Both the position numbers and the translations under genes were made by a program. A stretch of DNA of 64,000 bases from Candidatus Bathyarchaeota archaeon (GTDB taxonomy: Archaea > Thermoproteota > Bathyarchaeia > TCS64), in NCBI GenBank assembly GCA_016783455.1, contig JADHWN010000009.1:1-64000 (forward strand). The letters are read 5' to 3'. Positions 6,653 through 34,380 of this stretch are shown piece after piece (the first letter of the stretch is position 1; every line of letters starts with the position of its first letter). The notes below the pieces were generated by a model. The model was not told the origin of the DNA, searched no databases, and saw only the letters and a program-made list of their open reading frames with translations.

Positions 6653-6712
6653 CGCGCGGCCGGTATACAGGCGACGACTGGAATCTTCTCCACGTCCTCT
6701 GCTCCGCCTGAG

Positions 6713-7380: not shown

Positions 7381-7404
7381 TCAATTTAACTTTGCACAAC
7401 ACTT

Positions 7405-7976: not shown

Positions 7977-8168
7977 AAGCTAATACTAAGCGACAAAGCA
8001 ACAGCCACCATATAGATCTAGGTCCAAAAAGCACTGAAGAAAGGACGACCCAAGAGCAGGAAACCCTGAAACTGACCAGCGGTACCCCATATATAACAGT
8101 AAGAGGAACCCGCAGAGATACCAAAGTTTATTTAGCCTCTCTTTCTACAGCTTTTCAGGTGGCAGAGA

Positions 8169-8375: not shown

Positions 8376-8381
8376 CGCAAC

Positions 8382-8645: not shown

Positions 8646-8770
8646 AACTACCACGTACAGCCTCATAGGCAGAAACGTCGCGCGCGCAACGTAATCGTCC
8701 TACTGGAAGACGATAATTAACCATAATTGAATTCCTTCAGGACAATAAAGGTCGTAGATCATAGCGCGCG
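8646..8770 (+). repeat. Dispersed repeat R1, copy c
   Basis: From 8679 the sequence repeats the CG tract, aacgtaatcgtcctactgg, an AT-rich segment and ccttcaggacaataaagg, as in copy b at 4990-5078, ending again in a CG tract (8764-8770). The left hairpin part is degraded. It separates the RelE pair from the terminase genes. Confidence 0.65.
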
Positions 8771-8839
8771 AGAGGACGTGTGTTGGGGGTGATAAAGGGA
8801 TAACCTCTTCACCTAATTTACCCTATATTTACCCTATAA

Positions 8840-9391
8840 ATGCTAAATTTGAATACATTTATTACTCAGGAAAATGTGATGAATACATGGATGACATCAA
8901 CAGGCAGGTGGACCCAGGACGAGGAGCGCCTCATGGAGGAACTCTACCCGATAACCGACACCCCCTTCCTCTCGAAGATCCTCGACAGGCGCGTATCCGC
9001 CATCGAGGACAAGGCCTCCAGGATGGGCCTCAAGAAGACGGACAGCCGTGAACCCCCCGCTGAGAACAGGATAAGGATAATTGAGAGGGGCTTCAAGCTC
9101 AGGACGCGGAAGGTCAGGATAGACTACGTCCTCGACACACGGAAGATCATCGAGAACGCCATCACCAACCTTGAGGAGCTGGCCGGAGAGGCCCACACAC
9201 GCGCCACCGCCAAGTACCTCTCCACCGACACACGGCAGAAGTGGGCCCGCATCGAGACCTACATCTACCAGACAATAAACACCCTCACCAAGAACTACGA
9301 CAGCCAGCAGATAGCCCAACGGCTCGAGGAGCTGAACACCCGTGTCGAGAAACTTATGGAAGAAGCTCAGGAGCCTGGAGACCCAGATTAA
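8840..9391 (+). CDS. Terminase small-subunit-like DNA-binding protein
   Basis: A 183-aa protein. An N-terminal helix-turn-helix of the Myb/SANT kind, WTQDEERLMEELYPITDTPF then SKILDRRVSAIEDKASRMGL, resembles phage small terminase or GcrA-like domains. A helical middle and a C-terminal coiled-coil-like segment (AQRLEELNTRVEKLMEEA) could oligomerise. The start may be the ATG at 8840 or at 8879. The gene overlaps the terminase large subunit by 50 bases, which supports a small-subunit role. No other capsid, portal or packaging gene is near. Confidence 0.6.
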   Translation: MLNLNTFITQENVMNTWMTSTGRWTQDEERLMEELYPITDTPFLSKILDRRVSAIEDKASRMGLKKTDSREPPAENRIRIIERGFKLRTRKVRIDYVLDTRKIIENAITNLEELAGEAHTRATAKYLSTDTRQKWARIETYIYQTINTLTKNYDSQQIAQRLEELNTRVEKLMEEAQEPGDPD

Positions 9392-10703: not shown

Positions 10704-10862
10704 GGACGTCGTCACGACCATCAATCGACAATGACGAGTCTTCAGGCATGGAGTCAACCCGCTCCAAAGCATTTATAACATTCTATGTAACAATAATTTA
10801 CTAGAAGGGAAGTTTCGTTACATGGAATATAGTTTAGGTCCCCTCGAGGCCGAACTAGTGTT
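10692..10862 (+). repeat. Direct repeat DR, copy A
   Basis: Starts with the core AAGACCATATGA, the last codons of terL, and runs through aggacgtcgtcacgaccatc, a TATA-like catttataac, the AbiEi operator and the first 13 codons of the second abiEi gene. Copies B (13460-13658) and C (15783-15912) share most bases. Copy A is the only one followed by a complete abiEi. Confidence 0.8.
10785..10823 (+). promoter_or_regulatory. AbiE2 operator
   Basis: ATGTAAC (10785-10791) and GTTACAT (10817-10823) form a perfect 7-bp inverted repeat spaced by 25 bases; the right arm covers the abiEi ATG. A TATA-like catttataac lies immediately upstream. Copy B of the repeat keeps the left arm but has GTTACAC on the right, and copy C keeps only the left arm. 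Confidence 0.6.
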
Positions 10863-11625
10863 CACCCTAGAGAAGGACAGCAGAACCGTATTCACCGTAG
10901 ACGACGCCAGAGGTCTACTGGACGCCTCAGATGAAGTCCTGTGGAAGCTACTCCACAGGTTGACCCTCAAGGGGAGGATACAGAGAATTAAAAGGGGTTT
11001 CTACGTCCTCGTCCCTGCTAAGGCCGGCTACCTGCCCAAGTGGCGGGAGCAGGTCTACGCGATGATCGACGACCTCCTCGACGACTACTATCTCGGGTAC
11101 TGGACCGCGATGAACCACTGGCACATGACGGAGCAGCTCCCCCTCACAGCGTTCATCGCCACGACGTCCAGGAGAAGGGACTTCGTCTACGACGACGCCG
11201 TCCCCATAAACTTCATCACGCTGAAGCCCCGCAAGTTCTTCGGGTGGACCACCGAGGAGGCTGGAAGCCACAGGTTCCGTGTATCCGACCCCGAGAAGAC
11301 CGTCGTGGACTCGATGGACCTCCCCCAGTACTCCGGCGGCATGGCGGAGGCGGCCAAGACCCTCTCCCACGATCTGGACTGGAGTAAGGTGATAGAGTAC
11401 GCAGACAGGCAGGGAAACAGGACCGTGCACAAGAGACTGGGATACCTCATCGAGCTCCAAGGGACGGACGTCCCCTCGGACGCCCTGAAGCAGCTGAGAT
11501 CCAGGATAAGCTCAGGCTACAGCTGGCTAGACCCCACGGCCCCCCACAAACCCCTGAGACACGACTCACGGTGGAACCTAAAGATCAACCTCCCCCACGA
11601 GGCCCTGGAGGAGCATCAGACGTGA
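10822..11625 (+). CDS. abiEi: AbiEi-type antitoxin, system 2
   Basis: A 267-aa canonical AbiEi (COG5340-like) protein. The N-terminal winged helix covers about 1-65 and ends in RIQRIKRGFYVLVPA. The body has YYLGYWTAMNHWHMTEQLP, AFIATT, FFGWTTEEAGSHRFRVSDPE and KTVVDSMDLPQYSGGM, all usual for the family. It should repress the operon through the inverted repeat at its start and counteract AbiEii. Its stop overlaps the toxin GTG start. Only distant similarity to system 1 is apparent. Confidence 0.85.
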   Translation: MEYSLGPLEAELVFTLEKDSRTVFTVDDARGLLDASDEVLWKLLHRLTLKGRIQRIKRGFYVLVPAKAGYLPKWREQVYAMIDDLLDDYYLGYWTAMNHWHMTEQLPLTAFIATTSRRRDFVYDDAVPINFITLKPRKFFGWTTEEAGSHRFRVSDPEKTVVDSMDLPQYSGGMAEAAKTLSHDLDWSKVIEYADRQGNRTVHKRLGYLIELQGTDVPSDALKQLRSRISSGYSWLDPTAPHKPLRHDSRWNLKINLPHEALEEHQT

Positions 11626-12398
11626 TAACCGACATAGAGCTCCGCCGGCTCTCCGTGGAAACAGGCGTACCCGTGGGCACCGTCGAGAAGGACCTCGCCA
11701 TAACATGCGCACTCTACGCCATCTCAAGAAGGAGGCTGAGGGACCACCTGGCGTTCAAAGGAGGAACGGCCATCAAGAAGATATACCACCCCGGAGCCAG
11801 ATTCTCCGAGGACCTGGACTTCACCACCATAGACCTGGAGGAGGAAGAAGCCGCAACCCAGCTGGAGTCCCTCAACGACGCCGAGATCAACTCCATCACA
11901 TTCATGGAGATACACCAGGACGGACACACCCACAGAGGCACAAGGTACAGGCTCCCCTACATCGGCCCACTCAACCACGTAAACAGCATACGCCTCGACC
12001 TCTCATTCAGAGACGACCTCATCCTCCCCCAGGAGGAGAGAACCGTCCAATCGGGCTTCAGCGAGGACATAACCTCAAGAGTCAAAGCCCTATCCTTCAC
12101 CGAGCTCATGGCCGAAAAACTGAGAGCCATGATGACACGTGAGAACCCCAGAGACTACTACGACGCATGGGCACACCTACACAAGATAGACGAAAAAGAG
12201 CACCTCAAAGAACTCACCCAGAGAAAATGCGCCCTGGCCGAGTACCCCTACAACCCGTCAAAAATCCTCGACCAAGACGTACTATCAAGAATAGAATCCG
12301 CCTGGAAAACACAGCTGCAGCACCTGACCCCCGACTACGTCGAGTTCCAGACGATAATCCCCAAGCTGAAAGAACAGACAAGATTCCTCTTCACCTGA
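11622..12398 (+). CDS. abiEii: AbiEii-type nucleotidyltransferase toxin, system 2
   Basis: A 258-aa protein read from the GTG at 11622, which overlaps the abiEi stop (GTGA); the track ORF starts earlier only because the frame is open. The nucleotidyltransferase signature FKGGTAIKKIYHPGARFSED is at about 45-64 and is followed by LDF. Later AEKLRAMMTRENPRDYYDAW holds the conserved basic helix. A terminase tail copy begins 12 bases after the stop. Confidence 0.85.
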   Translation: MITDIELRRLSVETGVPVGTVEKDLAITCALYAISRRRLRDHLAFKGGTAIKKIYHPGARFSEDLDFTTIDLEEEEAATQLESLNDAEINSITFMEIHQDGHTHRGTRYRLPYIGPLNHVNSIRLDLSFRDDLILPQEERTVQSGFSEDITSRVKALSFTELMAEKLRAMMTRENPRDYYDAWAHLHKIDEKEHLKELTQRKCALAEYPYNPSKILDQDVLSRIESAWKTQLQHLTPDYVEFQTIIPKLKEQTRFLFT

Positions 12399-16975: not shown

Positions 16976-17098
16976 CCCAGCCACACACCGCACGGAGCAC
17001 GAGGCATTGAACATAGGAACGGGGCCGCCCCAACCTCGCACACGCACAAGTCCCTAATCGTGCAATACTTTGATAAAAGCTGGGTGAGAGTCCTTCCC

Positions 17099-19195
17099 AT
17101 GGCCGCGGCAGGGCTGCTTCTAGGCGTCGACATCGGCGGCACGTTCACCGACCTCATGCTCTTCGACCCTGAGACAGGGTCGATGGACTTCACAAAGATT
17201 CTGACGACCCCAGACGACCTCTCCAGGGGCGTCCTCAAGGGGATCAGGACGATCACCGAGGCCAGAGAAACATCTGCAGAAGAAATCTCCTCGGCGATCC
17301 ACGGCAGCACCATCGGCATCAACACCATCATCGAGCGGAAAGGAGCGAGGACCGGCCTCATAACCACCATGGGCTTCGAGGACGTGCTCCTCATCGGGAG
17401 ACAGACGAGGCCCAGGATCTACGACTGGACCGTAGGGAGGCCCAGGCCCCTCGCCCCCGGATCCCTAAGAAAGGGAGTCCGGGAGAGGATCTCCTACACG
17501 GGCGAAATCCTAGAGCCCCTGGACCTCGAAGGCCTCGGAGAATCGTTAAGACACCTCAAGGAAGACGGGGCTGAGTCGGTAGCCATCTGCCTCCTCCACT
17601 CATATGCGAACCCCAGCCACGAGAAGGAGATCGAGAAAGCCATCAAGTCGATGTGGCCGGAAGCCTATGTCTCAGTCTCATCGGAACTCCTACCCGAGTT
17701 CCGGGAATACGAGAGAATGAGCACCACAGTGGCAAACGCGTACATCGGCCCCATCGTCTCCAAGTACATCGAGGACCTAGAGAAATCTGTAGAGGACGTC
17801 GGTGTACGACAGCTCTTGGTAATGCAGGCCAACGGGGGGCTCATGACCACCAAGGACGCGATGACTAAGGCGGTGAACACCGTCGAGTCGGGGCCAGCCG
17901 GCGGGGTCATCGCAGCCGCCTATATCGGCGGCCTCGTGGGCAGGGGGAAGATCATCTCCTTTGACATGGGAGGAACCACGGCGAAGAGCAGCATCGTTAT
18001 CGACGGAAAGCCCCTAGTCACCACCGAGTACGAGATCTCACCCCTCGAGCACGGCGAGAGGATCGTGAAGGGCTCGGGCTACCCCATTAAGACCCCCGTC
18101 GTCGACCTCGTTGAGGTGGGAGCCGGGGGAGGGAGCATCGCCTGGATCGACTCGGGAGGAGCCCTCAGGGTGGGCCCAATGAGCGCTGGAGCGGACCCAG
18201 GCCCGGCCTGCTACAGGATGGGAGGAATGGAGCCCACAATCACTGACGCCAACGTCATCCTGGGGAGGATCAACCCAGACTATTTCCTGGGGGGCGAGAT
18301 GAGCCTCGACGCCCAGGCCTCGAGGAGGGCCCTAGCGGGAATCGCCGGGGAGCTGGGGGTCGGTATTGTGGAGGCCGCGGAGGGGATCGTCATGGTGGCC
18401 AACTCGACGATGGCCAGGAGTATCAGGTATGTCACCACCGAGAGGGGGTACGACGCCCGGGAGTTCTCCATCGTGGCATTTGGCGGAGCCGCCCCTGTCC
18501 AAGTGGTCGACCTCGCGGAGGCGGTGGGGATAGGCGAGGTGATTATACCGCCTTCCCCGGGTGTATTCTCGGCGTTTGGCTTCCTGGTTGCCGACGTCGT
18601 GCACAACTACGTCAAGACGGTCTACATTAAGACCCCGGAGGCCAATGCTGAGCGGGTCGAGGCTATATTCATGGAGATGGAGGAGACGGGGTCAATCCAG
18701 CTCGACGTGGACGAGACTCCCCGCGAGGACAGGAGGCTGGACAGATCCGTCGACATGCGTTATATCGGTCAGAGCCACGAGCTGAATGTCCCGGTGCCCT
18801 CAGAGATAAGGGAGGACGGCCTCGAGGAGATCGTGAGACGCTTCCACACTATCCACATGAAACATTACGGCTACAGCATGCCCGATGAGGAGGTGGCCCT
18901 CGTCAGCTTCAGGCTCGTGGCGAGGGGCATAAGGTCGAAACCCGCGATTGAGGTGAAATCGACGCGTGTCGGTGACATCTCTGAGGCTTTGAAAGGGAGC
19001 AGGCCCGTCCACTTCGCGGACGGGAGCTGGATCGAATGTGACGTGTACGACAGGGAGCTGTTGAATCCCAGGAGCCTCTTTCAAGGGCCCTGCGTCGTGG
19101 AGGAGTGGGACACAACAACAATAGTGAACGGCGGCTACAGGGCAGAGGTCGACGCCTGGGGTAATCTATTATTGACTCGGGGAGGTGGAGCCTAG
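17099..19195 (+). CDS. hyuA: Hydantoinase/oxoprolinase subunit A (HyuA-like)
   Basis: An ATP-dependent hydantoinase/5-oxoprolinase alpha-type subunit, 698 aa from the ATG at 17099; the 13 earlier codons cover a TATA-like ttgataaaag. The ASKHA phosphate loop LGVDIGGTFTDLMLFD is at residues 8-23. Later motifs are HGSTIGINTIIERKGA, ANGGLMTTKDA, ESGPAGGV and SFDMGGTTAKSSI. The family opens cyclic amides (5-oxoproline, N-methylhydantoin) at the cost of ATP together with subunit B. hyuB follows after two bases. N-methylhydantoin as substrate would fit a methyl-compound lifestyle but is speculative. Confidence 0.9.
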   Translation: MAAAGLLLGVDIGGTFTDLMLFDPETGSMDFTKILTTPDDLSRGVLKGIRTITEARETSAEEISSAIHGSTIGINTIIERKGARTGLITTMGFEDVLLIGRQTRPRIYDWTVGRPRPLAPGSLRKGVRERISYTGEILEPLDLEGLGESLRHLKEDGAESVAICLLHSYANPSHEKEIEKAIKSMWPEAYVSVSSELLPEFREYERMSTTVANAYIGPIVSKYIEDLEKSVEDVGVRQLLVMQANGGLMTTKDAMTKAVNTVESGPAGGVIAAAYIGGLVGRGKIISFDMGGTTAKSSIVIDGKPLVTTEYEISPLEHGERIVKGSGYPIKTPVVDLVEVGAGGGSIAWIDSGGALRVGPMSAGADPGPACYRMGGMEPTITDANVILGRINPDYFLGGEMSLDAQASRRALAGIAGELGVGIVEAAEGIVMVANSTMARSIRYVTTERGYDAREFSIVAFGGAAPVQVVDLAEAVGIGEVIIPPSPGVFSAFGFLVADVVHNYVKTVYIKTPEANAERVEAIFMEMEETGSIQLDVDETPREDRRLDRSVDMRYIGQSHELNVPVPSEIREDGLEEIVRRFHTIHMKHYGYSMPDEEVALVSFRLVARGIRSKPAIEVKSTRVGDISEALKGSRPVHFADGSWIECDVYDRELLNPRSLFQGPCVVEEWDTTTIVNGGYRAEVDAWGNLLLTRGGGA

Positions 19196-19197
19196 CG

Positions 19198-20919
19198 ATG
19201 GCTGGCCTCGACGCCGCGACCCTCGAGGTGATGAGGAACTCCCTATTCTCCATCGCCGAGGAGATGGGAGCGGTCCTCGTGAGGGCTGCCTACTCGACGA
19301 ACATCAAGGACCGGAGGGACTGCAGCTGTGCAATCTACACTCCCCGGGGGGAGCTTGCGGCCCAGGCGGAGCACATACCCCTCCATCTTGGCATCATGCC
19401 CTCGGCGGTAAGGGGGCTCCTCTCCTACTGCAAGGATCACTCGATCGAGATGGAGCCGGGGGACGCCTTCCTCTTCAACGACCCGTTCATAACGGGATCC
19501 CACACCTGGGACCTGATGGTGGCCACACCAGTGTTCCACGGCGGAGAGATACAGGCTATAGTCGGCAATCTCGCCCACCACGCCGACATCGGGGAGCACA
19601 AGAGCCACATCCCCACCGAAGCCCTCGACGAAGGAATCCGCATCCCGCCGGTAAAGATCCAAAAAAAGGGAGATCTAGACGAAGAGATTCTGAGCCTCAT
19701 TAGATCTAACGTCAGGATCGAGGAGGTAGGGAGAGACTTGCTGGCCCAGCTCGGGGCCAACGCGAAGGGAGTCGAGAGGATGGGGGATCTCATCGAGCGC
19801 CACGGCAGAACAGGTTCTCGAATGTACATGGATGAGTTGATAAGTTACTCGGAGCGGAGGATCAGGGCAGGGATATCACGGCTACCGAAGAGAAGAGTCT
19901 CCTTCGAAGACTATGTCGAGGGCGACGGGATCACCGACGAACCTGTCAAGATCAAGGCGACCGTCTCGATCGAGGACTTCGACATCATCATCGACTTCAC
20001 CGGAACCGATCCCATGGTCAGGGGCCCCATTAATTCTCCGTTCCCGGTCACGATGGCGTGCGCAGGGTACTGCGTCAAGAGCCTCGTCGACCCCGACGCC
20101 CCCAGCAACGAGGGGATATACAGGCCCATACGCGTCGAGGCTCCGGAGGGATCACTGGTGAACGCCAGGTATCCTGCCGCGGTAGCCTACGCCAACTCGG
20201 TCATCTGCATGCGCTTGGTCGATGTCATTCTAGGCGCCTTCGCGAAGATCGTGCCGGATCGGGTATGCGCCGCCTCAACGGGGACGATGAACGCCCTCAA
20301 CATCAAAGGAGTCGATCCAAGGACCGGGAGGTTCTACGGCTACATCGAGACCTACGGAGGGGGCTGGGGGGCGATGCGGGGTATGGACGGTCTCGACGCC
20401 ACCCACACCCACATGACCAACACGAGGAACGCTCCCATCGAGGCCATCGAGATCGCCTACCCCCTCAGGGTCCACAGGTATGGGATCTTAAGAGACAGCG
20501 AAGGGGCTGGCGAGCGGAGGGGGGGCGTCGGCATCATCCGGGAGATCGAAGCCATCAACCACGCCGCCACCCTCGGGGGACGGGGAGATCGGGTGAAGAT
20601 CAAGCCCTGGGGGCTCGAGGGAGGAAAGGAGGCCTCGGGTTCCAGGTATTACAAGAAGCTGGGAGACGGAGAAAGCGTCCCCCTCCCGTCGAAGTTCCAG
20701 GGGATCATCCTCAAACCCGGGGAGAGGATCGTGATCGAGACGGCGGGAGGCGGAGGCTGGGGAGACCCACACGCAAGGGACCCCGAACTCGTGAGGAGGG
20801 ACGTCGTCGAGGGGTTGATAACCCTTGAGAGGGCTCGAGAGGTCTACGGCGTAGCGATCGACCCGGAGACCCTCGAGGTTCTCCATGTAGAGACACGCGC
20901 GCGACGCGAATATACTTGA
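19198..20919 (+). CDS. hyuB: Hydantoinase/oxoprolinase subunit B (HyuB-like)
   Basis: A 573-aa HyuB-family subunit. It begins LDAATLEVMRNSLFSIAEEM and contains FNDPFITGSHTWDLMV, GNLAHHADIGEHKSH, DFTGTDPMVRGPIN and the C-terminal TAGGGGWGDPHARDPE, all standard. ggaggtgg precedes the start by about ten bases. Its last codons run through a CG tract (20896-20903, giving TRARREYT), and a second tract lies ten bases past the stop. It is co-transcribed with hyuA. Confidence 0.9.
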   Translation: MAGLDAATLEVMRNSLFSIAEEMGAVLVRAAYSTNIKDRRDCSCAIYTPRGELAAQAEHIPLHLGIMPSAVRGLLSYCKDHSIEMEPGDAFLFNDPFITGSHTWDLMVATPVFHGGEIQAIVGNLAHHADIGEHKSHIPTEALDEGIRIPPVKIQKKGDLDEEILSLIRSNVRIEEVGRDLLAQLGANAKGVERMGDLIERHGRTGSRMYMDELISYSERRIRAGISRLPKRRVSFEDYVEGDGITDEPVKIKATVSIEDFDIIIDFTGTDPMVRGPINSPFPVTMACAGYCVKSLVDPDAPSNEGIYRPIRVEAPEGSLVNARYPAAVAYANSVICMRLVDVILGAFAKIVPDRVCAASTGTMNALNIKGVDPRTGRFYGYIETYGGGWGAMRGMDGLDATHTHMTNTRNAPIEAIEIAYPLRVHRYGILRDSEGAGERRGGVGIIREIEAINHAATLGGRGDRVKIKPWGLEGGKEASGSRYYKKLGDGESVPLPSKFQGIILKPGERIVIETAGGGGWGDPHARDPELVRRDVVEGLITLERAREVYGVAIDPETLEVLHVETRARREYT

Positions 20920-23210: not shown

Positions 23211-24596
23211 CTAGATTGAGGGGACTCCCATGTCCCCAAGTTCCTTCTTGATTCCTTCGTAGAGGTCCAAGTACTCCTTCGAGGGTGTGATGGTCTTCAG
23301 GTCGTAACATTCCTGGAACATCTTCCCCAGGGGAGCGTTACCCAGCTTGCCCTCGTATTTGGCGATTATCCCTTTCACCAACTCGTTCGCATCCTCCCGC
23401 TTCAGCCTCTCTTCGACGGATCCGTATCCCACCTCGCATGCCAGCCTCGCCTCGAGGGGTGTCGCCCTGTTCTTGTGCTTGTTCTCGGCCGTGGCGATCT
23501 CCCAAAGGTTGGCGCCGGAGACAGTGCTCGCCAGTCCGTGGGCGGCGGCCTCGTAGAGGACCATGGGGGTGCAGGGGCCGGCGTCGGTGAAGCCCCCCGA
23601 GAGGGAGATGAACGGGGTGTTCCTGGAGAGGGCCTGGTAGGTGACGCTGAGGACCCAGAGGAGCTCCCGGGAGGTGTTGTAGGAGTACCTGAAGTGGATG
23701 GGGAAGTAGAGGGACCAGTAGGTCTGGTTCACCATGAGGGCCATGATGTGGAACGCGATGCCAACCAGGGCCGTCCCCTCTGCCCCGCCGCTGTACCCCC
23801 CGTAAAGGGGACCGAACAGGGCGCCGGGTATCCCGCCGTACTGGTGGAAGTGGACCATCTTGTTGAGGAGGCTATAGTCGATCTTGAGCTCGGCGATGCT
23901 GGGGACGAACCTGGTGTCGGAGGGCCTCGCCCCCCACTCCGGGTTGCTCACCGCGATCTGGGCGGCGTCCGACTCGGCTGTCCCCACGCTCTGGAGGTTG
24001 AGGCCGGGCTTCCCCACTCGCCGGGCTGCCTCCCTGAACATCATCGCGTGGGCGATGGAGGCCTTCACCTCCATTGGGGAGCCCGACTTGATGGGTATCC
24101 CCTCGATGGTGTCCAGGATCGGGGCGCAGACCCCGTCCGCCAACGGTTCCTGGAGGTAGGCGATGGTGTAGGGGGTGAAGATCTCCTCGTCGCAGGTGAT
24201 GTCGGGGCTCAGGATGCAGTGGGGGGTCCTCGTGTCCTCGATCTCGCGCTTCCCCATCCTCCGGGCGTCTCTGCCGGTACCCACGGTGATCTCGCTGGAG
24301 GAGAACCTCATGGCCTCCTTGATCTCGCTCTCCTCGAACAGGATCCTCCGGTGGTTGCTGAGACACAGGGTCCCCACGTCCAAGTAAAGGTCCCACGCAG
24401 CGTTCCAAAGGTCGTCGGCGAGGGAGTCGTCGCTGGGAACTATCTCCTCGGGGTCGAACTTGAGGTCGTACTCCTTGATGAGGGAGCGGAGCTTTGGGTA
24501 GAGTATCCGGAGGTCGAAGTCTCTCTCGGTGCATATGGGGCCGGTCTCGACGCGCTCCAGTAGCTGGTTCAGCCTCCAAGGGGGCACCATCTTCAT
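23211..24596 (-). CDS. mtmB: MtmB-family methyltransferase, Gln at the pyrrolysine position
   Basis: 461 aa from MKMVPPWRLNQLLERVETGP; the track ORF adds 22 spurious residues. The whole chain follows methanogen monomethylamine methyltransferase MtmB: VGTGRDARRMGKREI, GPLYGGYSGGAEGTALVGIA, DAGPCTPMVLYEAAAHGLAS and the end APLGKMFQECYDLKTITPSK. Counting from the start, residue 202 is Gln (LNLQSVG, codon CAG), exactly where M. barkeri MtmB has Pyl202. No in-frame TAG is needed. It overlaps its corrinoid-protein gene by four bases. The substrate is therefore uncertain: a methylamine-like or other quaternary/N-methyl compound. Confidence 0.85.
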   Translation of the reverse strand: MKMVPPWRLNQLLERVETGPICTERDFDLRILYPKLRSLIKEYDLKFDPEEIVPSDDSLADDLWNAAWDLYLDVGTLCLSNHRRILFEESEIKEAMRFSSSEITVGTGRDARRMGKREIEDTRTPHCILSPDITCDEEIFTPYTIAYLQEPLADGVCAPILDTIEGIPIKSGSPMEVKASIAHAMMFREAARRVGKPGLNLQSVGTAESDAAQIAVSNPEWGARPSDTRFVPSIAELKIDYSLLNKMVHFHQYGGIPGALFGPLYGGYSGGAEGTALVGIAFHIMALMVNQTYWSLYFPIHFRYSYNTSRELLWVLSVTYQALSRNTPFISLSGGFTDAGPCTPMVLYEAAAHGLASTVSGANLWEIATAENKHKNRATPLEARLACEVGYGSVEERLKREDANELVKGIIAKYEGKLGNAPLGKMFQECYDLKTITPSKEYLDLYEGIKKELGDMGVPSI

Positions 24597-25264
24597 CCCC
24601 TCCTCCTCTTCTCGACGAGCTCCTTGGCGAGCTCCACGGCTTTCGGAGCGATCTCGGCCCACCCGTCGGCGCCTATCTCGTCTGCCCAGAGAAGGCTCGT
24701 GGAGCCTCCACCCACCATCACTATGAACTCGTCCCGCGTCTCCATCGCCTCCAGGATGTCGATGACCTCCTTCTGACTCGGCATCGTGGTGGTCATGAGT
24801 GCTGAGAGAGCGATGATGTCAGCCTTGTACTCCCGGGCCCGCTGCACGATCTCCATGGAGTCGACCCCCCTGCCGAGGTCGATGACCTTGAACCCGTTCA
24901 CAGTGAGGAGCATGCTTAAGATGTTCTTGCCGATGTCATGGATGTCCCCGAAGACCGTGGCCGTGATCGCGGTCCCCACCGTCCTCGCCTCCATCTCGTC
25001 CCTCTTCTCATTGCTTAAGCCCCCCATGAGGACCTCGGAGGCGGCCTGCATCGCCTCCCCCGCCAGCATCAGCTCGGGGAGATAGTACTCCTCGGACTCG
25101 AACTTGTCGCTGACGACGTTTGCCCCCGAAGATATCCCCTCCTCGATGACCTTCAGGGGATCGATGTCAGCCGTCACGATCTCCTCGGCAACCTTCCTCG
25201 CCTCATCCTCGTCGTACGCGATGATGCTCTCCTTCAGCCGTTCAATGAGCGCGTTCTCCGTCAA
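24593..25264 (-). CDS. Methyltransferase corrinoid protein 1 (MtmC-like)
   Basis: A 223-aa two-domain corrinoid protein. The N-terminal helical cap covers about 1-90. The B12-binding Rossmann domain carries GDIHDIGKNI (DxHxxG, with His as lower cobalt ligand), LSALMTTT and GGGSTS. It accepts a methyl group from the overlapping MtmB-family partner. The start is TTG with no ATG in frame; a TATA-like aattatatt lies about 42 bases upstream, so this module may have its own promoter inside the cluster. Confidence 0.9.
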   Translation of the reverse strand: MTENALIERLKESIIAYDEDEARKVAEEIVTADIDPLKVIEEGISSGANVVSDKFESEEYYLPELMLAGEAMQAASEVLMGGLSNEKRDEMEARTVGTAITATVFGDIHDIGKNILSMLLTVNGFKVIDLGRGVDSMEIVQRAREYKADIIALSALMTTTMPSQKEVIDILEAMETRDEFIVMVGGGSTSLLWADEIGADGWAEIAPKAVELAKELVEKRRRG

Positions 25265-25370
25265 AACCGTCGACCCAAACTCTATCTCGACTCAATCGTA
25301 ATATAATTTTGGAGAAGTTCACCAGCCTATGTATGGCAGTGGTAGGCCCGTGAGGGTCAGCCATCCCCTA

Positions 25371-26759
25371 TCAGTAGATGTAGTCGATGCCGAGGTCCCT
25401 GAACTCCGCCTTGACTCTGCCGTAGATCTCCTGGTACTCCTTGGAGGGCTCCAAGGTCTCCAGGTCGTAGCACTCCTCGAAGGTCTTCCCCAGGGGAGCG
25501 TTGCCCAGCTTTTCCTCGTACTTGGGCAGTATCTTCTTGACGATCTCGTTGACGTCGGATCTCTTGAGCCTAGATTTCACCGCGCTGAGGCCGGTCTCGC
25601 AGCCCATCCTCGCCTCCATAGGGGTGGTGCGCTCGAAATGCTTGTTCATGGCTGAGGCGATCTCCCAGAGCACCGCTGCCCCTGAGACGGCGCTCACCAT
25701 CCCGTGGAGCCCCGCCTCGTACATCACCATCTCAGTGCAAGGGCCCGCTACGGCGAAGCCGTTGGAGCCCGAGATGAGCCTCGAGTTGCTTGCGAGGGCC
25801 TGGTAGCTGAGGCTTACGAGCCAGAGCATCTCCCTGCTCGTGTTGTTGAGGTGTCTGATGTGGATGGGGAAGTAGCATGTGTAGTTTCCCTGGTTCACCA
25901 TGAGGCCTTGGAGGTGGGATGCGATGCCCAGGACCGTGGTCCCCTCGATGCCTGCGTAGGCCCCGAAGAGGGGGCTGGTGAGGGTGCCGATGTTGGCGCC
26001 ATTCTGCCTGAAGTGGAGGGCCTTGTTCATGAGGTCGTGGTCGATCTTGAGCTCGCTGATCACGGATACCAACCTGATGTCGGAGGGCCTCGCGCCCCAG
26101 ATAGGGTTGCTGGACGCTATCTGGGAGGCCGCGGAGAGGGCGGTCCCCGTAAGGCAGATGGCCATCCCAGGCCTCCCGACGCGGATGGCGGCCTGGCGGG
26201 AGTTAAGGGCGTGCACTGAGCCTCCCTGCTGCTCGAAGGGGCTGTGGGTCTTGGTGTATCCCCCGTCCACCTTCTCCAATATGGGAGTGGATACAGCGTC
26301 TGCGAGGGGCTCCTGCATGTAGGCCATAACGAGTTTGACGAAGTTCTTCTCGGAACATCGGACTCCTACAGGGGAGAACAGGCATCCGGGACGTCTTGGG
26401 TCCTCGATGCTCCGGGGGGACCAGGTTTTCCGGTCCTGACCTATTCCCAGTTCGATGCTGTCGTGGTAGTTCCAGAGGGCCTCCTTGAGCTCGTCGTCGG
26501 TGAATATCATCCTCCTGCTGGTGGAGGTGCAGAACACCCCCACGGAGAGGAATAGGTCCACCCCCGCGTTCCAGATGTCCTTCGCCAGGGAGTCGTCTGA
26601 GGGGACCGGGGTCTCGGGGTCATACTTGATGTCGTACTCCTTCACGACCCTCTTGATCTCGGGGACCAGCACCCGTCTGTCGAAGTCCCTCTCGGTTACC
26701 AGGGGGCCCGTCTCGGATCGGCGGAGAACCGATGTTATTCGCCAGGGCGGCACGGGCAT
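25371..26759 (-). CDS. mtmB: MtmB-family methyltransferase, Cys at the pyrrolysine position
   Basis: 462 aa, a paralogue of the gene at 23211. It begins MPVPPWRITSVLRRSETGPL and has LGIGQDRKTWSPRSI, SPLFGAYAGIEGTTVLGIAS, VAGPCTEMVMYEAGLHGMVS and the end APLGKTFEECYDLETLEPSK. Residue 202 is Cys (MAICLTG, codon TGC) where MtmB has pyrrolysine. The two paralogues differ in the pocket segment and likely use different substrates. It starts two bases after its corrinoid protein ends. Confidence 0.85.
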   Translation of the reverse strand: MPVPPWRITSVLRRSETGPLVTERDFDRRVLVPEIKRVVKEYDIKYDPETPVPSDDSLAKDIWNAGVDLFLSVGVFCTSTSRRMIFTDDELKEALWNYHDSIELGIGQDRKTWSPRSIEDPRRPGCLFSPVGVRCSEKNFVKLVMAYMQEPLADAVSTPILEKVDGGYTKTHSPFEQQGGSVHALNSRQAAIRVGRPGMAICLTGTALSAASQIASSNPIWGARPSDIRLVSVISELKIDHDLMNKALHFRQNGANIGTLTSPLFGAYAGIEGTTVLGIASHLQGLMVNQGNYTCYFPIHIRHLNNTSREMLWLVSLSYQALASNSRLISGSNGFAVAGPCTEMVMYEAGLHGMVSAVSGAAVLWEIASAMNKHFERTTPMEARMGCETGLSAVKSRLKRSDVNEIVKKILPKYEEKLGNAPLGKTFEECYDLETLEPSKEYQEIYGRVKAEFRDLGIDYIY

Positions 26760-26761
26760 CC

Positions 26762-27412
26762 CTACTCAACCCCCATTATCGCCTTTGCCATGGCGACCCC
26801 ATCCCAAACTGTCTCGCCCCAGCCGTCAGCCTCGATGCTCTCGTTCCACTCGGGGCTTGTGGAGCCTCCCCCGATAATGATCTTGATCTTCTCCCTGTTC
26901 CCGAACTCGGTGAGCATCTCGATGACCTCTTTCTGGGAGGGCATCGTGGTGGACATCAGGGAGGAGAGGGCGATGATGTCGGCACCGGTCTCCATAGCCT
27001 TGTTAACGACCTGTATGCTAGGGACATCTCTTCCGAGGTCGTGGACCTCGAAGCCGTGGATCTTCAGCATCTGGGAGAGGAGGTTCTTCCCGATGTCGTG
27101 GATGTCTCCGTAGACCGTTGCGATGACTACGGTCCCCTTCTTCTCTATCCTGTCGCCCGCGGGGAGGACGAATATGAATCTGTTCAATGACTTCGTGATT
27201 ATCTCCTCAGCGATCAGGAGTTCCCCCAAGAAATACTCCATGGACTCGAATTTTTCACCGATGATCCTCGCTGCCTCGGTGATCCCTTTCTCGATGATCT
27301 CGTTTATGTCGAAATTTGTGGCTATGATTTCCTCGGTGGTCTTCTCCGCAAGGTCTTCGTCGAGGCCCACGATGGCATCCTTTAACGTGATAATTAATTC
27401 ATCGATCGACAT
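26762..27412 (-). CDS. Methyltransferase corrinoid protein 2 (MtmC-like)
   Basis: A 216-aa corrinoid protein with a helical cap (about 1-88) and a B12 domain bearing YGDIHDIGKNLLSQM, LSSLMSTT and GGGSTS. It pairs with the Cys202 MtmB paralogue two bases downstream. A TATA-like ttttattatg centred about 27 bases upstream of the ATG suggests a separate, nearly leaderless promoter. Confidence 0.9.
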   Translation of the reverse strand: MSIDELIITLKDAIVGLDEDLAEKTTEEIIATNFDINEIIEKGITEAARIIGEKFESMEYFLGELLIAEEIITKSLNRFIFVLPAGDRIEKKGTVVIATVYGDIHDIGKNLLSQMLKIHGFEVHDLGRDVPSIQVVNKAMETGADIIALSSLMSTTMPSQKEVIEMLTEFGNREKIKIIIGGGSTSPEWNESIEADGWGETVWDGVAMAKAIMGVE

Positions 27413-27517: not shown

Positions 27518-29441
27518 TTAGATCTTCTGACCGAATCTCCTGAGGAGCTCCACGGTCTCGGGGTATTTTGTTAGGTCAGCGTGGGGGAAGTAGAGGGAGT
27601 TGATGTACTCCTTCTGGAAGTCCTTGTCCGCCGCGAGCTCGTAGTACTTGACCTTGGAGCTGATCTCCTCGGCGTACTCCCTCATCTCAGCGGACATCAG
27701 GGTCATCCTGGCCCCCGTCCCCGCGAGGTTCCCGGCGAACTCGATGCGCTCCAGGGGTATCTCAGGGTACATCCCTATGATGCGGGCGTTCTCGGGATCG
27801 ATGTAGTTACCGAAGGCACCGGCGACTACGAGCTTGCTGATGCTTTCATCGGTGACCCCCATCCTCTGCATCAGGAGGTCTGCGCCGGTGTGGATGGCGC
27901 CCTTCGCCTTCTGGAGCTCCCTGATGTCTCCGAGGGTGATCACGATGTCCGTGTCGATCTCTGTCTCCTTCTTCCAGGCGATCACGAACTCCCAGCCGTT
28001 GAGGCCCTTCCGGAGCCTGTCCGTCCTTTCGGTCATCTCAGTGACGAAGTTCCCACGGGGCATGATAAGGCCCGTCTTCAGGAACTCCGCGGGGGCGTCC
28101 ACGAGCCCGGAGCCGCAGATTCCGATGGGTGACGCATCCCCGATGGTCCTGTAGTAGACGTCGAAGGTGTCGGGGTCGATGCTGATCTTCTCAATGGAGC
28201 CGGTGGTGGCCCGCATCCCGAACTTGATCTCCATCCCTTCGAAGGCGGGGCCCGAGGCGCAGGAGTCCGCCATGACCAAGTCTTTGTTCCCGAGGTCGAT
28301 CTCCGTGTTGGTGCCCACGTCGATGGCCATTACCATCTCGTCGGACTCCAGCATCTTGGACGCTAGAACCACGGCGACGTTGTCGGCCCCCACGAATCCC
28401 CCTATAACTGGGAGGTGGTGGGCGTTGGCTCCCGGGTTGGCTCGGAGGCCTAGGGTGGAGGCCTTGACGTCGACCCCTCTCCTGCCGGCGGGGGTGTAGG
28501 GGGCAAATGCGACGTGTCGGGGCCAGACTCCGAGGAAGAGGAGCTGCATCACGGTGTTCCCCACGAAGTTGAGCTCGTAGATCTCCTCTGGCTTCACGTC
28601 GGCCTTCTCGCAGCACTCCTCGATGATCTCGTTGACCCCCGATATCACGGCTCCCTGGAGCTCGTTGACGGCGTCCCATCCCCCCATCATGACTCGGGTG
28701 ACCCGGGACATGATGTCCTCCCCGAAGGGGATCTGAGGGTTCATCCGGGCGGCGACGCCGACGACTGCTCCAGATCTTAGGTCTAGTAGGAATCCGGCGA
28801 TCTTGGTGGTCCCCACGTCCACTGCGAGCCCGTAGCATCTGTCCGACGTGTCCCCAGGTTCAAGGGCGATGATCCGGTTCCCCCAGACCACGGCGGTGGC
28901 CTCCCAGTCGGCCTCGCGAAGTGTGACTGGGAGGTTCCGATACACGTCGAAGTCGACCCCTAGCTCCGGCAGGCCGTATTGCTCGGTCAATGCAGCCAGG
29001 AGCCTATCCTCGTCGGCTCTGGAGTCCTGGAGCTGGGGCTTGGGCATGGTCACCCTGTACTTCCGTACGAGGGGGCTCGGCTCCACGGGTACATCAAGGC
29101 CCTCCGTCTGGAGCCTCTGACTGCCCACTCTGCTCCTCAGAGGCACGTAGATAACCGTGGACTCCCCCAGGCGGGTCAGGCATGCGAGTCTTATCCCTGC
29201 TTGGACCTCGTCTTCGGAGAGGTGCTTCATCTCGCTCTCAGTTCGTTCAAGACGTGTTGTGGCTTCTCCCATGACTCGGATCTTGCACTTCCCGCAGGTG
29301 CCTTTCCCCGCGCAGAGAGTCGAGATGTCCACCCCGAGGGCCTGGGCTGCCTCCATCACCGTGATGCCTGGGGGGAAATTTGCCCGCTTGCCATGGGGTT
29401 GGAATGTGACCTCGATCTCAGGGGGGGCCAGGTCTGTTCAC
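27518..29441 (-). CDS. RACo-type reductive activator of corrinoid proteins (apparent frameshift near start)
   Basis: The track ORF (27518-29359) starts too late, already inside a ferredoxin domain. Upstream, the same frame reads PEIEVTFQPHGKRANFPPGI with no start codon. A GTG at 29441, four bases after the corrinoid 3 stop, comes into frame only if the C7 run (29421-29427) has six Cs. The N-terminal 2Fe-2S site is CAGKGTCGKC. A central linker is followed by an ASKHA ATPase domain with GLAVDVGTTKIAGFLLDL. N-terminal 2Fe-2S marks RACo and not the 4Fe-4S RamA of methanogens. It returns Co(II) corrinoid to Co(I) using ATP and a low-potential donor. Confidence 0.85.
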
Positions 29442-29445: not shown

Positions 29446-30144
29446 CTAACTGGATCCGTCCTCTTCCTTCATAGACTCCGCGGTGGCGATTATAGTGTCG
29501 ATCAGTGTCTTGATCTTGCTGACGGCCTCCGTGGCGTCTTTGCCGTAGGCGTCTGAGCCTATCCGCTCCCTCCACTCCTCGCTCACGGAGCCGCCCCCGA
29601 TGATGGTCCTTACCTTTCCCTTCATGCCCTCCTTGTCCAGGCTCTGCTCGACGTCCTGCATCGACATGAGGGTGGGGGTCATCAGTGTGGACATCGCGAT
29701 CACCTGAGCCCCCTCGCTCTTCGCCTTCTCTATGAACTCAGGAGTGGGAACGTCCCTCCCCAAGTCTATGACCTCGTACCCCGAGGCGGTTAGCATCACC
29801 TTGACGATGTTCTTACCGATGTCGTGGACGTCCCCCTCCACGACCCCGAGGATGATCTTCCCCTTGGATCTCGATGCATCCTTGGGGATATGAGGCGTCA
29901 GTATGTTCAGCCCGGCGTACATGGCGTCAGCCGATAGGAGCATGTCGGGGAGGAAGTACTCCTTCCTCTCGTACTTGTCCCCCACGAGCTTCATGCCCTC
30001 GGCGAGACCGTGGATTATGGCGTCGTAGGGGGGCACCTCTTCGGCCAGCGCCTCGTTGGCTCCCTCCGCCGCGAGCTCCTCGTCGCCGAGATCGACTGCA
30101 TGTGTCAGCTTCTTGAAGACTCTCTCCCTGGTGCTCTCGCTCAT
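29446..30144 (-). CDS. Methyltransferase corrinoid protein 3
   Basis: 232 aa from MSESTRERVFKKLTHAVDLG; the first 48 residues of the track ORF are non-coding. The B12 domain has VEGDVHDIGKNIVKVM, MSTLMTPTLMSM and GGGSVS. It is the most distinct of the three corrinoid proteins and lies beside RACo and the UroD-fold methyltransferases. It probably carries methyl groups between those enzymes and MtrH. Confidence 0.9.
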   Translation of the reverse strand: MSESTRERVFKKLTHAVDLGDEELAAEGANEALAEEVPPYDAIIHGLAEGMKLVGDKYERKEYFLPDMLLSADAMYAGLNILTPHIPKDASRSKGKIILGVVEGDVHDIGKNIVKVMLTASGYEVIDLGRDVPTPEFIEKAKSEGAQVIAMSTLMTPTLMSMQDVEQSLDKEGMKGKVRTIIGGGSVSEEWRERIGSDAYGKDATEAVSKIKTLIDTIIATAESMKEEDGSS

Positions 30145-30209: not shown

Positions 30210-31241
30210 TCACGTCTTCGCGTGTTTGACCACAGCATCGACGAAGGCCTTGATGTTGTCGGTCGGGGTCTCGAGCCAGAAGTCGCATCCGGGAGCCACC
30301 ATGTCCACTCCATCCTTAACGGCGTTATCGACGGCTTCTCCGATCCTCTCGACTGGCCCAGCGTGAATCACGTCATAAGCAGGGATGTTGCCGATAATGG
30401 GATACCCGGGCTGCTTGCCTTCGACTATTCTCCTAGCGCCGTGGATAGGAGTTCTCTCGTCCACCGCGATCGCCGTTGCGCCGCAGTCCATCATGGACTC
30501 GAGGATCGTCATGGTTGATCCGCAGATGTTCAGCACCGTGGGTGTCTTCACCCGTCTGGTTATCTCGCGGAGGTAGGGCTTCACGAACTCGTCGAAGTGG
30601 GTGGGGGAGATGATGTCCGTGGAGGCCCCCATCTCGTGGAGGGTGATCACATTGGCCCCGGCCTCCTCGTAGAGGTTCGCGATCTCCACGTAGGTGTCGA
30701 GGGTGGCTCTGCAGAACTCGTGGACGGTCTCAGGGGACCGCCTCAGCCACTTCAGGAATGAGATGCTGTCCACGAGGTAGCTGCTGATACTCGTGAACGG
30801 CGGGGCCAGGTACGCGTTAACCGGGACGACTCCTCCGAACTCCTCCTTGAGAAGACGGATCGCCTCGACGACCACGGGGACCCTCCCGGCCTCCGAGACG
30901 TCCTCGGGAATACTTAATTCGGATGGCTCAGTGATCTTAAACTCCCTTATCGAAGGCCACCTGGCCGAGCCCTCGTGGAAATCGATCGCGGAACCGAACA
31001 CCTCGGCCTCCACGGTCATGCAGAAGGGGACCGAGACGTTGTCGAGGCCGCAGAGCCTGTGGGCTGCGGAGCCCAGCCTCGCCATCTTTCCGGGGTCGTG
31101 GTGGGCGGCGGGCCAGTGGGCGTCGTAGGCATCCATGAACCCGAGGGTGGCAACGCTGGTGGTATTGACACACGGGGTCCTGTCGGCCTCCTCAGGCCTC
31201 CCATCCAGGACCGCCATGAACCGATCATACGACGAGGGCAT
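30210..31241 (-). CDS. UroD-fold methyltransferase 1 (MtaA/CmuA-like), altered zinc site
   Basis: A 343-aa TIM-barrel protein of the uroporphyrinogen-decarboxylase/MtaA family. The methyltransferase zinc site is usually H-x-C plus a later Cys. Here it reads VLNICGST and APGCDFWLETP, so the first ligand His is Asn while both Cys remain. It is a close paralogue of the gene at 32245. It likely acts on methylcorrinoid, but the change in the metal site raises doubt about thiol activation. Confidence 0.8.
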   Translation of the reverse strand: MPSSYDRFMAVLDGRPEEADRTPCVNTTSVATLGFMDAYDAHWPAAHHDPGKMARLGSAAHRLCGLDNVSVPFCMTVEAEVFGSAIDFHEGSARWPSIREFKITEPSELSIPEDVSEAGRVPVVVEAIRLLKEEFGGVVPVNAYLAPPFTSISSYLVDSISFLKWLRRSPETVHEFCRATLDTYVEIANLYEEAGANVITLHEMGASTDIISPTHFDEFVKPYLREITRRVKTPTVLNICGSTMTILESMMDCGATAIAVDERTPIHGARRIVEGKQPGYPIIGNIPAYDVIHAGPVERIGEAVDNAVKDGVDMVAPGCDFWLETPTDNIKAFVDAVVKHAKT

Positions 31242-31281: not shown

Positions 31282-32238
31282 TCAAGCTCCCCGGGCTTTC
31301 TCGATCTTCTCGACGAACTCAGGGAACAGCTTGTAGAGGGGGTGCTCGTCGGTCAGGGTCTCTATATCATGCTCGATCTGGGCGGTGGATGCGATCATGG
31401 CATCGACGGCGGCGCACGCCGGGAAGACCCAGGGAGCAGCCTCGATGACTCCGTAGAGGAGAAAGTCGGCTCCCAGGGCAAGGGGGACCATCTGGGGAGC
31501 CACGTAGTTGACCTTAGCTACGTCCGGCCCCCATTCCTCTGGCTGTTTCCAGACCGCTGTGGCGTTCCCCGGAGCCCCCCCGGCAGGCAGCCCAAGCTCC
31601 TCCTTCACCCTGAAACACGCCCTGGCCCCCATGCCGATGCTGGGGATGTATGTGAAGATTGTGGTGTCCACCAGGGGCTTGGTGATGCCGGCCCTCTCGG
31701 AGACCTCGAGGAGCCCCAGCTTCTCATCGGTTCCCCTCAGGAGAGAGAGCACGCCCTCGGTGGTCCTGTCCTTGACGTTGTAGGCGAGGAGTATCGCGGC
31801 CTCTATCCCCGAGTCCCTGATGGCGTCGACCTCGGCCTCAGTGGGGGAGTAGATGCTGTTGTAGACTATCCTGTCGGTGAGCCCTATCTCCGTGACGTAT
31901 TCTAGGGCCTCCAGGCGGACCTTGGGGTAGGCATCTAGGAGGATGGGGGCCTCGGTGGCCTCGGAGACGAAGTCGATGTAGCTCCTGGCCGCCTCGATGG
32001 ATGTGCAGACTACGTCCAGCATGCAGGGGTTCCCGGTGAGATCGGAGAGCTCGTCCTGCTTCACTATGAGCTCCATTGCCCGGGTCCTGTCGAAGATCCC
32101 CTTCTTGGGGTCCTCCACGATCTTGTGGCCCTGGTAGAAGATGGATCCGATGAGGGTTGCCGGGAGCTCCCCCGGCTGTCCTCCGATCCTTTTTCCCCCG
32201 ATCTCGTAGATCTTCTGGGGGGTCTCAAACTTGAACAC
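31282..32238 (-). CDS. mtrH: Tetrahydromethanopterin S-methyltransferase subunit H (MtrH)
   Basis: A 318-aa protein collinear with methanogen MtrH: MFKFETPQKIYEIGGKRIGG, FDRTRAMELIVKQDELSDLT, GNPCMLDV, IVYNSIYSPTEAEV and ADFLLYGVIEAAPWVFPA. MtrH moves a methyl group between corrinoid and tetrahydro(methano)pterin. No other mtr subunit (MtrA-G) is present, so it should act as a soluble methyl-pterin transferase with the local corrinoid proteins and feed the methyl branch of the Wood-Ljungdahl pathway. It lies six bases after the UroD-fold gene 2. Confidence 0.92.
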   Translation of the reverse strand: MFKFETPQKIYEIGGKRIGGQPGELPATLIGSIFYQGHKIVEDPKKGIFDRTRAMELIVKQDELSDLTGNPCMLDVVCTSIEAARSYIDFVSEATEAPILLDAYPKVRLEALEYVTEIGLTDRIVYNSIYSPTEAEVDAIRDSGIEAAILLAYNVKDRTTEGVLSLLRGTDEKLGLLEVSERAGITKPLVDTTIFTYIPSIGMGARACFRVKEELGLPAGGAPGNATAVWKQPEEWGPDVAKVNYVAPQMVPLALGADFLLYGVIEAAPWVFPACAAVDAMIASTAQIEHDIETLTDEHPLYKLFPEFVEKIEKARGA

Positions 32239-32244: not shown

Positions 32245-33297
32245 TCATCTCCCATACGGCGATTTCCCGAACTCCTTCACCGCCTCGACGAACGCCTTCA
32301 CGTGCGCCGTGGGGGTCTCGAGCCAGAAGTCGCATCCCAGGGCCACCATGTCCGCCCCCTCCTCGATGGCGACCCTGACGTGGTCCCTGATTCGTTCAAC
32401 GGGGCCATTGTGTATGACGTTGTAGGCGCTGACGTTTCCTCCTATGGGGTAGCCAGATTTTACCCGGTCGGCGATCTCCTTCGCGGCCCGCATCGAGGTG
32501 GTCTCCCCGATGGTGATAGCCTCGGCTCCGCACTCCATCATCCCGGTGATGAGTTCCAGATCGCCGCTGACACACTGGCCGCAGATGTGGATTATCCTGG
32601 GAGCCCTGGTTAGGGCCACCATCTTCTTCAGGTAGGGCTTGATGAGATCATCGAAGTGGCGGGGGGAGATGCTGTCGAGGGAGGCCCCCTCCTCCCTGAA
32701 TGTGATGATGTCGGCTCCGGCCTCGACGAAAGCGTTCGCGACCTCTGCATAGCGGGGGTACATCTCGTTGCAGAGCTGGGTGATCTTCTCTGGGGCTCTT
32801 TTAATCCACTTGAGAAACTCGCTGGGCTCCACAAGGTAGCTCCCGATGCTCGTGAAGGGAGCGTTGACGTACGCGATCACGGGGATCTCCCCGCCGTACT
32901 CCTCCCTCAGGATGCCCAGGGCCTTCAGTACCGTGGGGATTCTCCCGGCTGAGAGTAGGTCTCCGGGGATCCGGAGATCGGAGGCATCATCGGCGATGAA
33001 CTCCTTCACCGTGGGCCACTTCACCTGGCCCTCGAAAAAGTCGACCGGTGCGCCGAAGGCCTCGGCCTCGAGAGTCAGGTCGAAGGGAACCGTGATGTTG
33101 TCGAGGCCCGCGAGCATGGATAGGCCAGCGGCGAGCCTCGCCATCTTCTCGGGGTTCCTGTGGGCGTCGGGCCAGTGCGCGTCGAGGGCCTCCATGGAGT
33201 CCAGGGTGTAGGTCCCCACGGAGCTCATAGCGGGGAGCCGATCAATGTCTCGCCTATTCCCCTTCAGGATGGCGGTCAAACGGTCGAAGGCGTTCAT
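32245..33297 (-). CDS. UroD-fold methyltransferase 2 (MtaA/CmuA-like)
   Basis: About 350 aa from MNAFDRLTAILKGNRRDIDR. The zinc-site motif is complete (IIHICGQC) with the later ALGCDFWLETP. It shares long segments with paralogue 1, such as MEALDAHWPDAHRNPEKMAR and the GCDFWLETPT end. It is a likely methylcorrinoid methyltransferase. The start could be three residues earlier. Confidence 0.85.
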   Translation of the reverse strand: MNAFDRLTAILKGNRRDIDRLPAMSSVGTYTLDSMEALDAHWPDAHRNPEKMARLAAGLSMLAGLDNITVPFDLTLEAEAFGAPVDFFEGQVKWPTVKEFIADDASDLRIPGDLLSAGRIPTVLKALGILREEYGGEIPVIAYVNAPFTSIGSYLVEPSEFLKWIKRAPEKITQLCNEMYPRYAEVANAFVEAGADIITFREEGASLDSISPRHFDDLIKPYLKKMVALTRAPRIIHICGQCVSGDLELITGMMECGAEAITIGETTSMRAAKEIADRVKSGYPIGGNVSAYNVIHNGPVERIRDHVRVAIEEGADMVALGCDFWLETPTAHVKAFVEAVKEFGKSPYGR

Positions 33298-33327
33298 GGG
33301 CCTCACTCTAACATGGTCCTTGATGAT

Positions 33328-34380
33328 TTAAGGCACGCCTGCCGAGGGTAACGAGTGGATCCTCGCGGAATCGACCAGAGCAATGATGTTCCTGTTGGGG
33401 GTCACCGGGGAGATGCCGCAACTAGGCGCCAGGATGTCCACCCCTGCCTCGATGGCCGCCCTGCACTCCTCCCGCACGTCTTCAGGCCCTTTGAGTAGCA
33501 GGGTCACCGTGGTGGAGATGTTGCCCGTTATCTTGGCCTTACCAGAAACCAGCCCCTTAGCCTGCCGGGCGTCCACCTTGTCGGAGATGCTGATGGAGTT
33601 GACCCCGGTCTCCGCCATGTCCCCGAGTATCGGGGTGCAGTTGCCGCAGATGTGAAGGAAAGAAGTCCCGCCGATTGCCTCAACTATCCTGGCGATGGCG
33701 GGCTTGACGATCCCTCGGAACATCCGGGGGCTGATGATGTCCGAGGAGGCGCTGGGGTCGGCGATGGAGATCACGTCGGCGCCAGCCTCCATGAGCGCCT
33801 TGCCGTAGATGGATCCGATCTCGGTGGCGAGCTGGATGAAACCCATGTATTTGTCAGGTTTCCGGATGAGGCCTTTGAGCATGGGCTCGATGCCGCTGAG
33901 GTGGCCTGCGAGGGTGAAGGGGCCCGTCATCCCGGCGACCACGGGGAGGGTGTCCCCCACCCGCTCCTTGAGGATGCTGATCGCCTCCAGTATAACGGGG
34001 ACCCGCTTCGCCATGAGGAGGTCCTCCGGGACCACGACCTCGTCAAAGTCCGTGTAGGGAGTACCTGTTATCTGGGGGATGCTGTCCCTCTTGCTCCCGA
34101 AGTCGGTGTAGCACCCCAGAGCCTCGGCCTCGATGCTGAGGCAGTAGGGGACTCCGGCGACCTCCAGGCCAGTGAGGTCATACGTGGATCTAGAGAGCTC
34201 CGCCATCTTCCCCGGGTCGCGGTGAGCCTCGGGCCAGTAGACCCTGATGGCCTCCATGCTCTCCACGGTGACTGTCTGGGAGCACCCCGAGCAGAAAGTG
34301 GGTATCCTATCGATTGGCCGGTCATTCAGCGCGTTGAAGAGCCGCTCCTTGGGGGTCATATCTGTCATAAGAGTACCCAA
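33328..34380 (-). CDS. UroD-fold methyltransferase 3 (MtaA/MtbA-like), first gene of the cluster
   Basis: A 350-aa protein closest of the three to classical MtaA/MtbA: FLHICGNCTPILGDMAETGV holds the His and first Cys, and LAPSCGISPVTPNRNI the last Cys. SISDKVDARQAK and GNISTTVTLLLKG are also family-like. The translation start may be MTDMTPKERL (34368). A TATA-like ctttaaaatg about 35 bases upstream probably drives the operon. This copy could work with a thiol acceptor such as CoM. Confidence 0.85.
   Translation of the reverse strand: MGTLMTDMTPKERLFNALNDRPIDRIPTFCSGCSQTVTVESMEAIRVYWPEAHRDPGKMAELSRSTYDLTGLEVAGVPYCLSIEAEALGCYTDFGSKRDSIPQITGTPYTDFDEVVVPEDLLMAKRVPVILEAISILKERVGDTLPVVAGMTGPFTLAGHLSGIEPMLKGLIRKPDKYMGFIQLATEIGSIYGKALMEAGADVISIADPSASSDIISPRMFRGIVKPAIARIVEAIGGTSFLHICGNCTPILGDMAETGVNSISISDKVDARQAKGLVSGKAKITGNISTTVTLLLKGPEDVREECRAAIEAGVDILAPSCGISPVTPNRNIIALVDSARIHSLPSAGVP

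Follow-up and report, generated by a model that had tools for sequence, protein, structure and literature searches.

Organization of the methyltransferase operon

The window analysed here, a stretch of 64,000 nucleotides, is contig 22 of the genome of a mud-dwelling Bathyarchaeia MAG (2.19 Mb, 75% complete). Its minus strand carries two genes related to the monomethylamine methyltransferase gene mtmB, lying at the end of an operon of corrinoid-dependent methyl transfer genes:

23211–24590, minus: P0001, MtmB homologue without pyrrolysine (Pyl); Gln (CAG) at the Pyl202 position, Phe and Leu at the Glu229 and Glu259 positions
24593–25264, minus: CP1, corrinoid protein of the MtmC/MtbC/MtgC type; DIHDIG motif
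25371–26759, minus: P0002, MtmB homologue without Pyl; Cys (TGC) at the Pyl202 position, Leu at both the Glu229 and Glu259 positions
26762–27412, minus: CP2, corrinoid protein, 46% identical to CP1; DIHDIG motif
27518–29359, minus: RACo/AcsV/RamA-type reductive activator of corrinoid proteins; NCBIfam AcsV 476 bits and RamA 137 bits, both below the curated cut-offs
29446–30144, minus: CP3, third corrinoid protein; DVHDIG motif, pyl_corrinoid 215.3 bits, at the cut-off
30210–31241, minus: MtaA/MtbA-family (UroD-fold) protein; first Zn-ligand His replaced by Asn (NICG...GC)
31282–32238, minus: MtrH/MtgA-type methyltransferase, probable MT2 (methyl-corrinoid to tetrahydropterin); score below the curated equivalog cut-off
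32245–33306, minus: MtaA/MtbA-family protein; HxC...C Zn motif kept
33328–34380, minus: MtbA/MtaA-like methyltransferase, of the three the closest to the solved structure 4AY7; HxC...C Zn motif kept

Read in the direction of transcription (34380 to 23211), the genes are MtbA-like, MtbA-like, MtrH, MtbA-like, CP3, RACo activator, CP2, P0002, CP1 and P0001. Intergenic gaps are 2–106 bp, with a spacing of just 2 bp between each mtmB-like gene and the corrinoid gene upstream of it (CP1 for P0001 and CP2 for P0002). The MT1, corrinoid protein, MT2 and activator of a three-component corrinoid methyltransferase system are all encoded together. The UroD-fold neighbours were considered as MtoB-type O-demethylases and rejected; we prefer to regard the trio as MtbA-like, because among solved structures they match 4AY7 (MtbA/MtaA type) best and HxC...C is retained in two of the three proteins.

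A HyuA/HyuB hydantoinase/oxoprolinase gene pair (17060–20919, plus strand) converges on the operon. N-methylhydantoinase was discarded as a pathway partner, since the pair is on the opposite strand and none occurs beside MtmB homologues in the fetched loci. Elsewhere, the window encodes two AbiEii-type nucleotidyltransferases and a Fic/DOC protein near each other (3816–12398), a class III aminotransferase, an acetyl-CoA-synthetase-like enzyme and a beta-keto acid cleavage enzyme (BKACE) in a row (47048–51236, minus strand), and a reductive-dehalogenase-subunit-like protein (PF13486; 54240–55400, minus strand). The genome has two copies of rpiA. The one in the window shares 80% identity with a copy in a member of the same family (G009) but only 56% with a member of the same genus (G002), so some doubt within the family remains about the binning of this contig.

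P0001 and P0002 are MtmB homologues without pyrrolysine

Both open reading frames lack internal stops, and their products are about 31% identical to Methanosarcina barkeri MtmB over their full length. M. barkeri MtmB1 aligns end to end with each (phmmer against the PDB, E of about 1e-70), in agreement with the collinearity proposed in a first-pass annotation, and the PF05369 (MtmB superfamily) profile matches them over the full length with 345 and 344 bits respectively (curated cut-off 25). The two proteins are 55% identical to each other. Their AlphaFold models (pLDDT 94.9 and 92.8) superimpose on MtmB crystal structures with TM-scores of 0.94–0.96 and an rmsd of 1.4–1.5 Å (against 1L2Q, 0.94 for P0001 and 0.95 for P0002). 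Comparison with the MttB-type fold gives a TM-score of only about 0.5, indicating similarity of fold only; the MttB/MtgB profile PF06253 matches neither protein, and its sole match in the host genome is on C54.

The same annotation had counted residues to Gln in one protein and Cys in the other at the pyrrolysine position, and both assignments hold in the phmmer alignments as well as in a MAFFT alignment of 68 sequences. In the models of both proteins the residue is on a barrel strand (E198–200 and E200–203), as is Pyl202 of MtmB (PMC9842639). P0001 starts at the ATG at 24590 and has a second ATG upstream at 24596; its Gln is residue 200 counted from the former and 202 from the latter.

Might these nevertheless be misread Pyl enzymes, or might the host recode TAG? 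Pyl-encoding relatives exist within the Bathyarchaeia, and pyl genes have been reported there earlier (PMC5424206, PMC9723677). One such genome, G054 (L102, G054:C1:346000–358000), has PylS, PylD and a TAG-containing mtmB 56% identical to MtmB1, together with 11 more MtmB homologues without TAG. In the host, searches for the PylS N-terminal domain, the PylS C-terminal domain and PylD gave no match above cut-off (an absence that is provisional at 75% completeness); the PylS C-terminal and PylD searches do match G054 and G061 of the same class. The site is encoded by CAG in P0001 and by TGC in P0002, and TAG serves as an ordinary stop, terminating both P0001 and CP2. We therefore discard Pyl recoding, which has a negligible probability given the codons and the missing PylS and PylD.

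Two distantly related MtmB homologues of different families, L007 (G053:C169:493–1866) and L011 (G001:C234:2059–3441), have an in-frame stop (TAA and TAG respectively) at the same column, that of MtmB Tyr267 in GG[Y/W]AGG, where their relatives have Tyr or Trp. This may reflect coincidence, assembly error or gene decay.

Residue 202 varies among close relatives

P0001 and P0002 fall in a clade (SH-aLRT 99) with sequences from an uncultured archaeon (L033), a Heimdallarchaeota genome (L034), the Bathyarchaeia genome G053 (L007) and the synergistote Fretibacterium (L036). The AU test rejects a tree in which this clade is joined to the Pyl MtmBs (p = 0.0008, for a group defined after inspection of the tree). 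Among 72 aligned non-Pyl homologues, column 202 is Asn in 33, Val in 7, Ile in 5, Leu in 4, Thr in 3, and Gly and Lys in 2 each, with Gln, Cys, Phe, His and Ala occurring once each and a gap in 11. On the tree the residue switches at least 20 times, counting Pyl and gap states. The six members of the clade itself have Gln, Cys, Ile, Lys, Lys and Val, and its sister sequences mainly Asn.

It had been suggested that Gln and Cys are functional replacements that set two different substrates. The paralogues are indeed 55% identical and each has its own corrinoid protein, but the column changes even between near neighbours, from Cys to Ile in the closest P0002 orthologue (L033, 76% identical) and from Gln to Lys in the closest P0001 orthologues (L007, 63%; L034, 61%), and in another family position 202 is deleted. 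Because of this variation among orthologues we reject residue 202 as a specificity code, which we regard as very improbable; Gln and Cys are neither conserved catalytic residues nor markers of substrate. P0001 and P0002 could still have two functions, given their 55% identity and the fact that each has its own corrinoid protein and its own separate orthologues.

Glu229 and Glu259, which we take to be active-site residues of MtmB, are both replaced by non-acidic residues. With Pyl202 replaced and both glutamates lost, pyrrolysine-adduct chemistry is absent, and position 202 is probably one exchangeable position in the pocket wall. Arg228 and Trp365 are specific to the P0001/P0002 clade; we do not interpret them as part of a binding site.

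Distribution and genomic context

Genes of the P0001 type have a patchy, accessory distribution: among 257 Bathyarchaeia genomes, matches to P0001 with E ≤ 1e-100 are confined to 7, and identity exceeds 60% only in the host and G053. At the Bathyarchaeia loci L037, L038 and L097, a corrinoid protein, an MtmB homologue and MtrH are again found with a RACo gene alongside. At L033, a corrinoid protein gene is followed by the P0002 orthologue and a branched-chain-type ABC ATPase gene, and two permease genes of that family are nearby, a hint, from this single locus, that the donor is amino-acid-like.

Tandem MtmB-like gene pairs preceded by a single corrinoid protein gene are present in Methanomethylicota, Dehalococcoidia and a Desulfurococcaceae MAG (L039–L042, L045–L048 and L051), and the tree suggests that such pairs arose more than once. 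A further locus, L067 (G000:C61, 12498–17460), encodes three more non-Pyl MtmB homologues with one corrinoid protein and is conserved across the family (71–97% identity); position 202 is removed from its tandem pair by a two-residue deletion, and an arginase-family gene adjoins the module in the host and in G001.

The host encodes CdhC of CODH/ACS. McrA is absent from all 81 genomes searched, including the host, for which 75% completeness makes the absence provisional. Two MtrH proteins are encoded in the host genome, one in the operon and the other adjoining an MttB homologue. ComA was found in none of seven genomes, although the same search also missed Methanosarcina acetivorans, so a coenzyme M (CoM) route remains compatible with this result.

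A proposed role in methyl transfer to acetyl-CoA

From the homology, fold, gene order and residue variability observed here we infer catalytic activity, the pairing of partners and the direction of methyl flow. In our preferred explanation, to which we assign a probability of about 0.75 (jointly with the interpretation of position 202 above), P0001 and P0002 are Pyl-independent MT1 enzymes of the MtmB superfamily. They would transfer a methyl group from a donor to the corrinoid protein without pyrrolysine, and the MtrH-type protein would pass it to a tetrahydropterin, from which it would enter acetyl-CoA synthesis through CODH/ACS; the RACo-type protein would re-reduce corrinoid that has fallen to Co(II). 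The three MtbA-like proteins suggest a thiol acceptor such as CoM, and the MtrH route leaves this trio unexplained.

The substrate is likely to be something other than that of plain monomethylamine chemistry, since both proteins are true members of the MtmB family that lack Pyl, and neither PylS nor PylD is detectable in the genome. The earlier expectation of new substrates is thus supported as a departure from monomethylamine, but not as something that the identity of residue 202 can reveal. We guess the donor to be an amino-acid-like compound with a quaternary or otherwise activated N-methyl group. More broadly, and at somewhat below even odds, the clade spanning Bathyarchaeia, Heimdallarchaeota, the uncultured archaeon and Synergistota may represent a Pyl-free MtmB class in which the Pyl position is evolutionarily free and the donor is not tetramethylammonium, choline or methylamine but perhaps an amino-acid-like N-methyl compound.

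The strongest competing explanation, which we consider possible but a good deal less probable, is that P0001 and P0002 successively demethylate one compound and share one MT2, as MttB, MtbB and MtmB do with trimethylamine. Two MT1/corrinoid protein pairs with a single MtrH in one operon fit this, as do the recurrent tandem pairs in other lineages, but no intermediate is known, and the P0002 orthologue at L033 and the P0001 orthologue at L007 each lack a partner, although this is weak evidence as both contigs are short. We think it unlikely that the two proteins are functional orthologues of MtqB, that is, tetramethylammonium/choline methyltransferases. Among the non-Pyl MtmB homologues, MtqB alone has been characterised (PMC13044021), and the non-acidic residues at the Glu229 and Glu259 positions would be consistent with a cationic donor for which Pyl is not needed; however, the published tree puts the MtqB clade close to the Pyl MtmBs, with which P0001 and P0002 do not group, and the transporter gene at L033 points to an amino-acid-like donor.

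There are hundreds of MtmB-like genes without pyrrolysine and without an assigned function, and the automatic label 'monomethylamine methyltransferase' is probably wrong for them. The alignment shows that substrate prediction in this family should not rely on residue 202 alone. The window provides a well-packaged test case, from a class of archaea that is abundant and uncultured, in which a single operon supplies MT1, corrinoid protein, MT2 and activator.

Comparison with known systems

The view of the first-pass annotation that non-Pyl relatives are much less established for MtmB than for MttB is outdated, as the group is established and partly characterised. Kashyap et al. (2026) note that MtmBs lacking Pyl were recognised many years ago, present a tree of 1,061 MtmB sequences of which many are non-Pyl and of unknown function, and assign tetramethylammonium and choline as substrates to MtqB, a non-Pyl homologue from a clade with a Met/Cys pocket signature (PMC13044021). 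To this we add the setting of such genes in an operon of a non-methanogenic archaeon and evidence for the lack of conservation at position 202.

P0001 and P0002 resemble the Pyl-dependent MtmBs (PF05369; 1L2Q, 1NTH, 1TV2) in whole-length homology, TIM-barrel fold and an adjacent corrinoid protein of the MtmC/MtbC family, but differ in having Gln or Cys in place of Pyl202, in the loss of Glu229 and Glu259, in a host without detectable pyl or mcr genes, and in the MtrH-type MT2 of the operon. Like MtqB of Methanococcoides methylutens Q3c (PMC13044021), each is homologous to MtmB, lacks Pyl and has a corrinoid protein of its own; MtqB, which we compare by description only, feeds CoM and methane formation in a methanogen, whereas the P0001/P0002 clade stands apart from the Pyl MtmBs. 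The combination of a non-Pyl MT1, a corrinoid protein and an MtrH-type MT2 is shared with the non-Pyl MtgB/MttB family (glycine betaine demethylase) and its MtrH-type MtgA, although P0001 and P0002 belong to another MT1 family. The mto methoxydotrophy operon of Methermicoccus (PMC8630106) likewise groups a corrinoid protein, the MtrH-like MtoA, an activator and UroD-fold proteins; its MT1s are the UroD-fold MtoB proteins, whereas the window adds MtmB-type MT1s and its UroD proteins are more like MtbA/MtaA than O-demethylases. The best-supported reading is that the pathway in the window works as the methoxy and glycine betaine systems do (PMC8630106), using an MT1 of the MtmB type.
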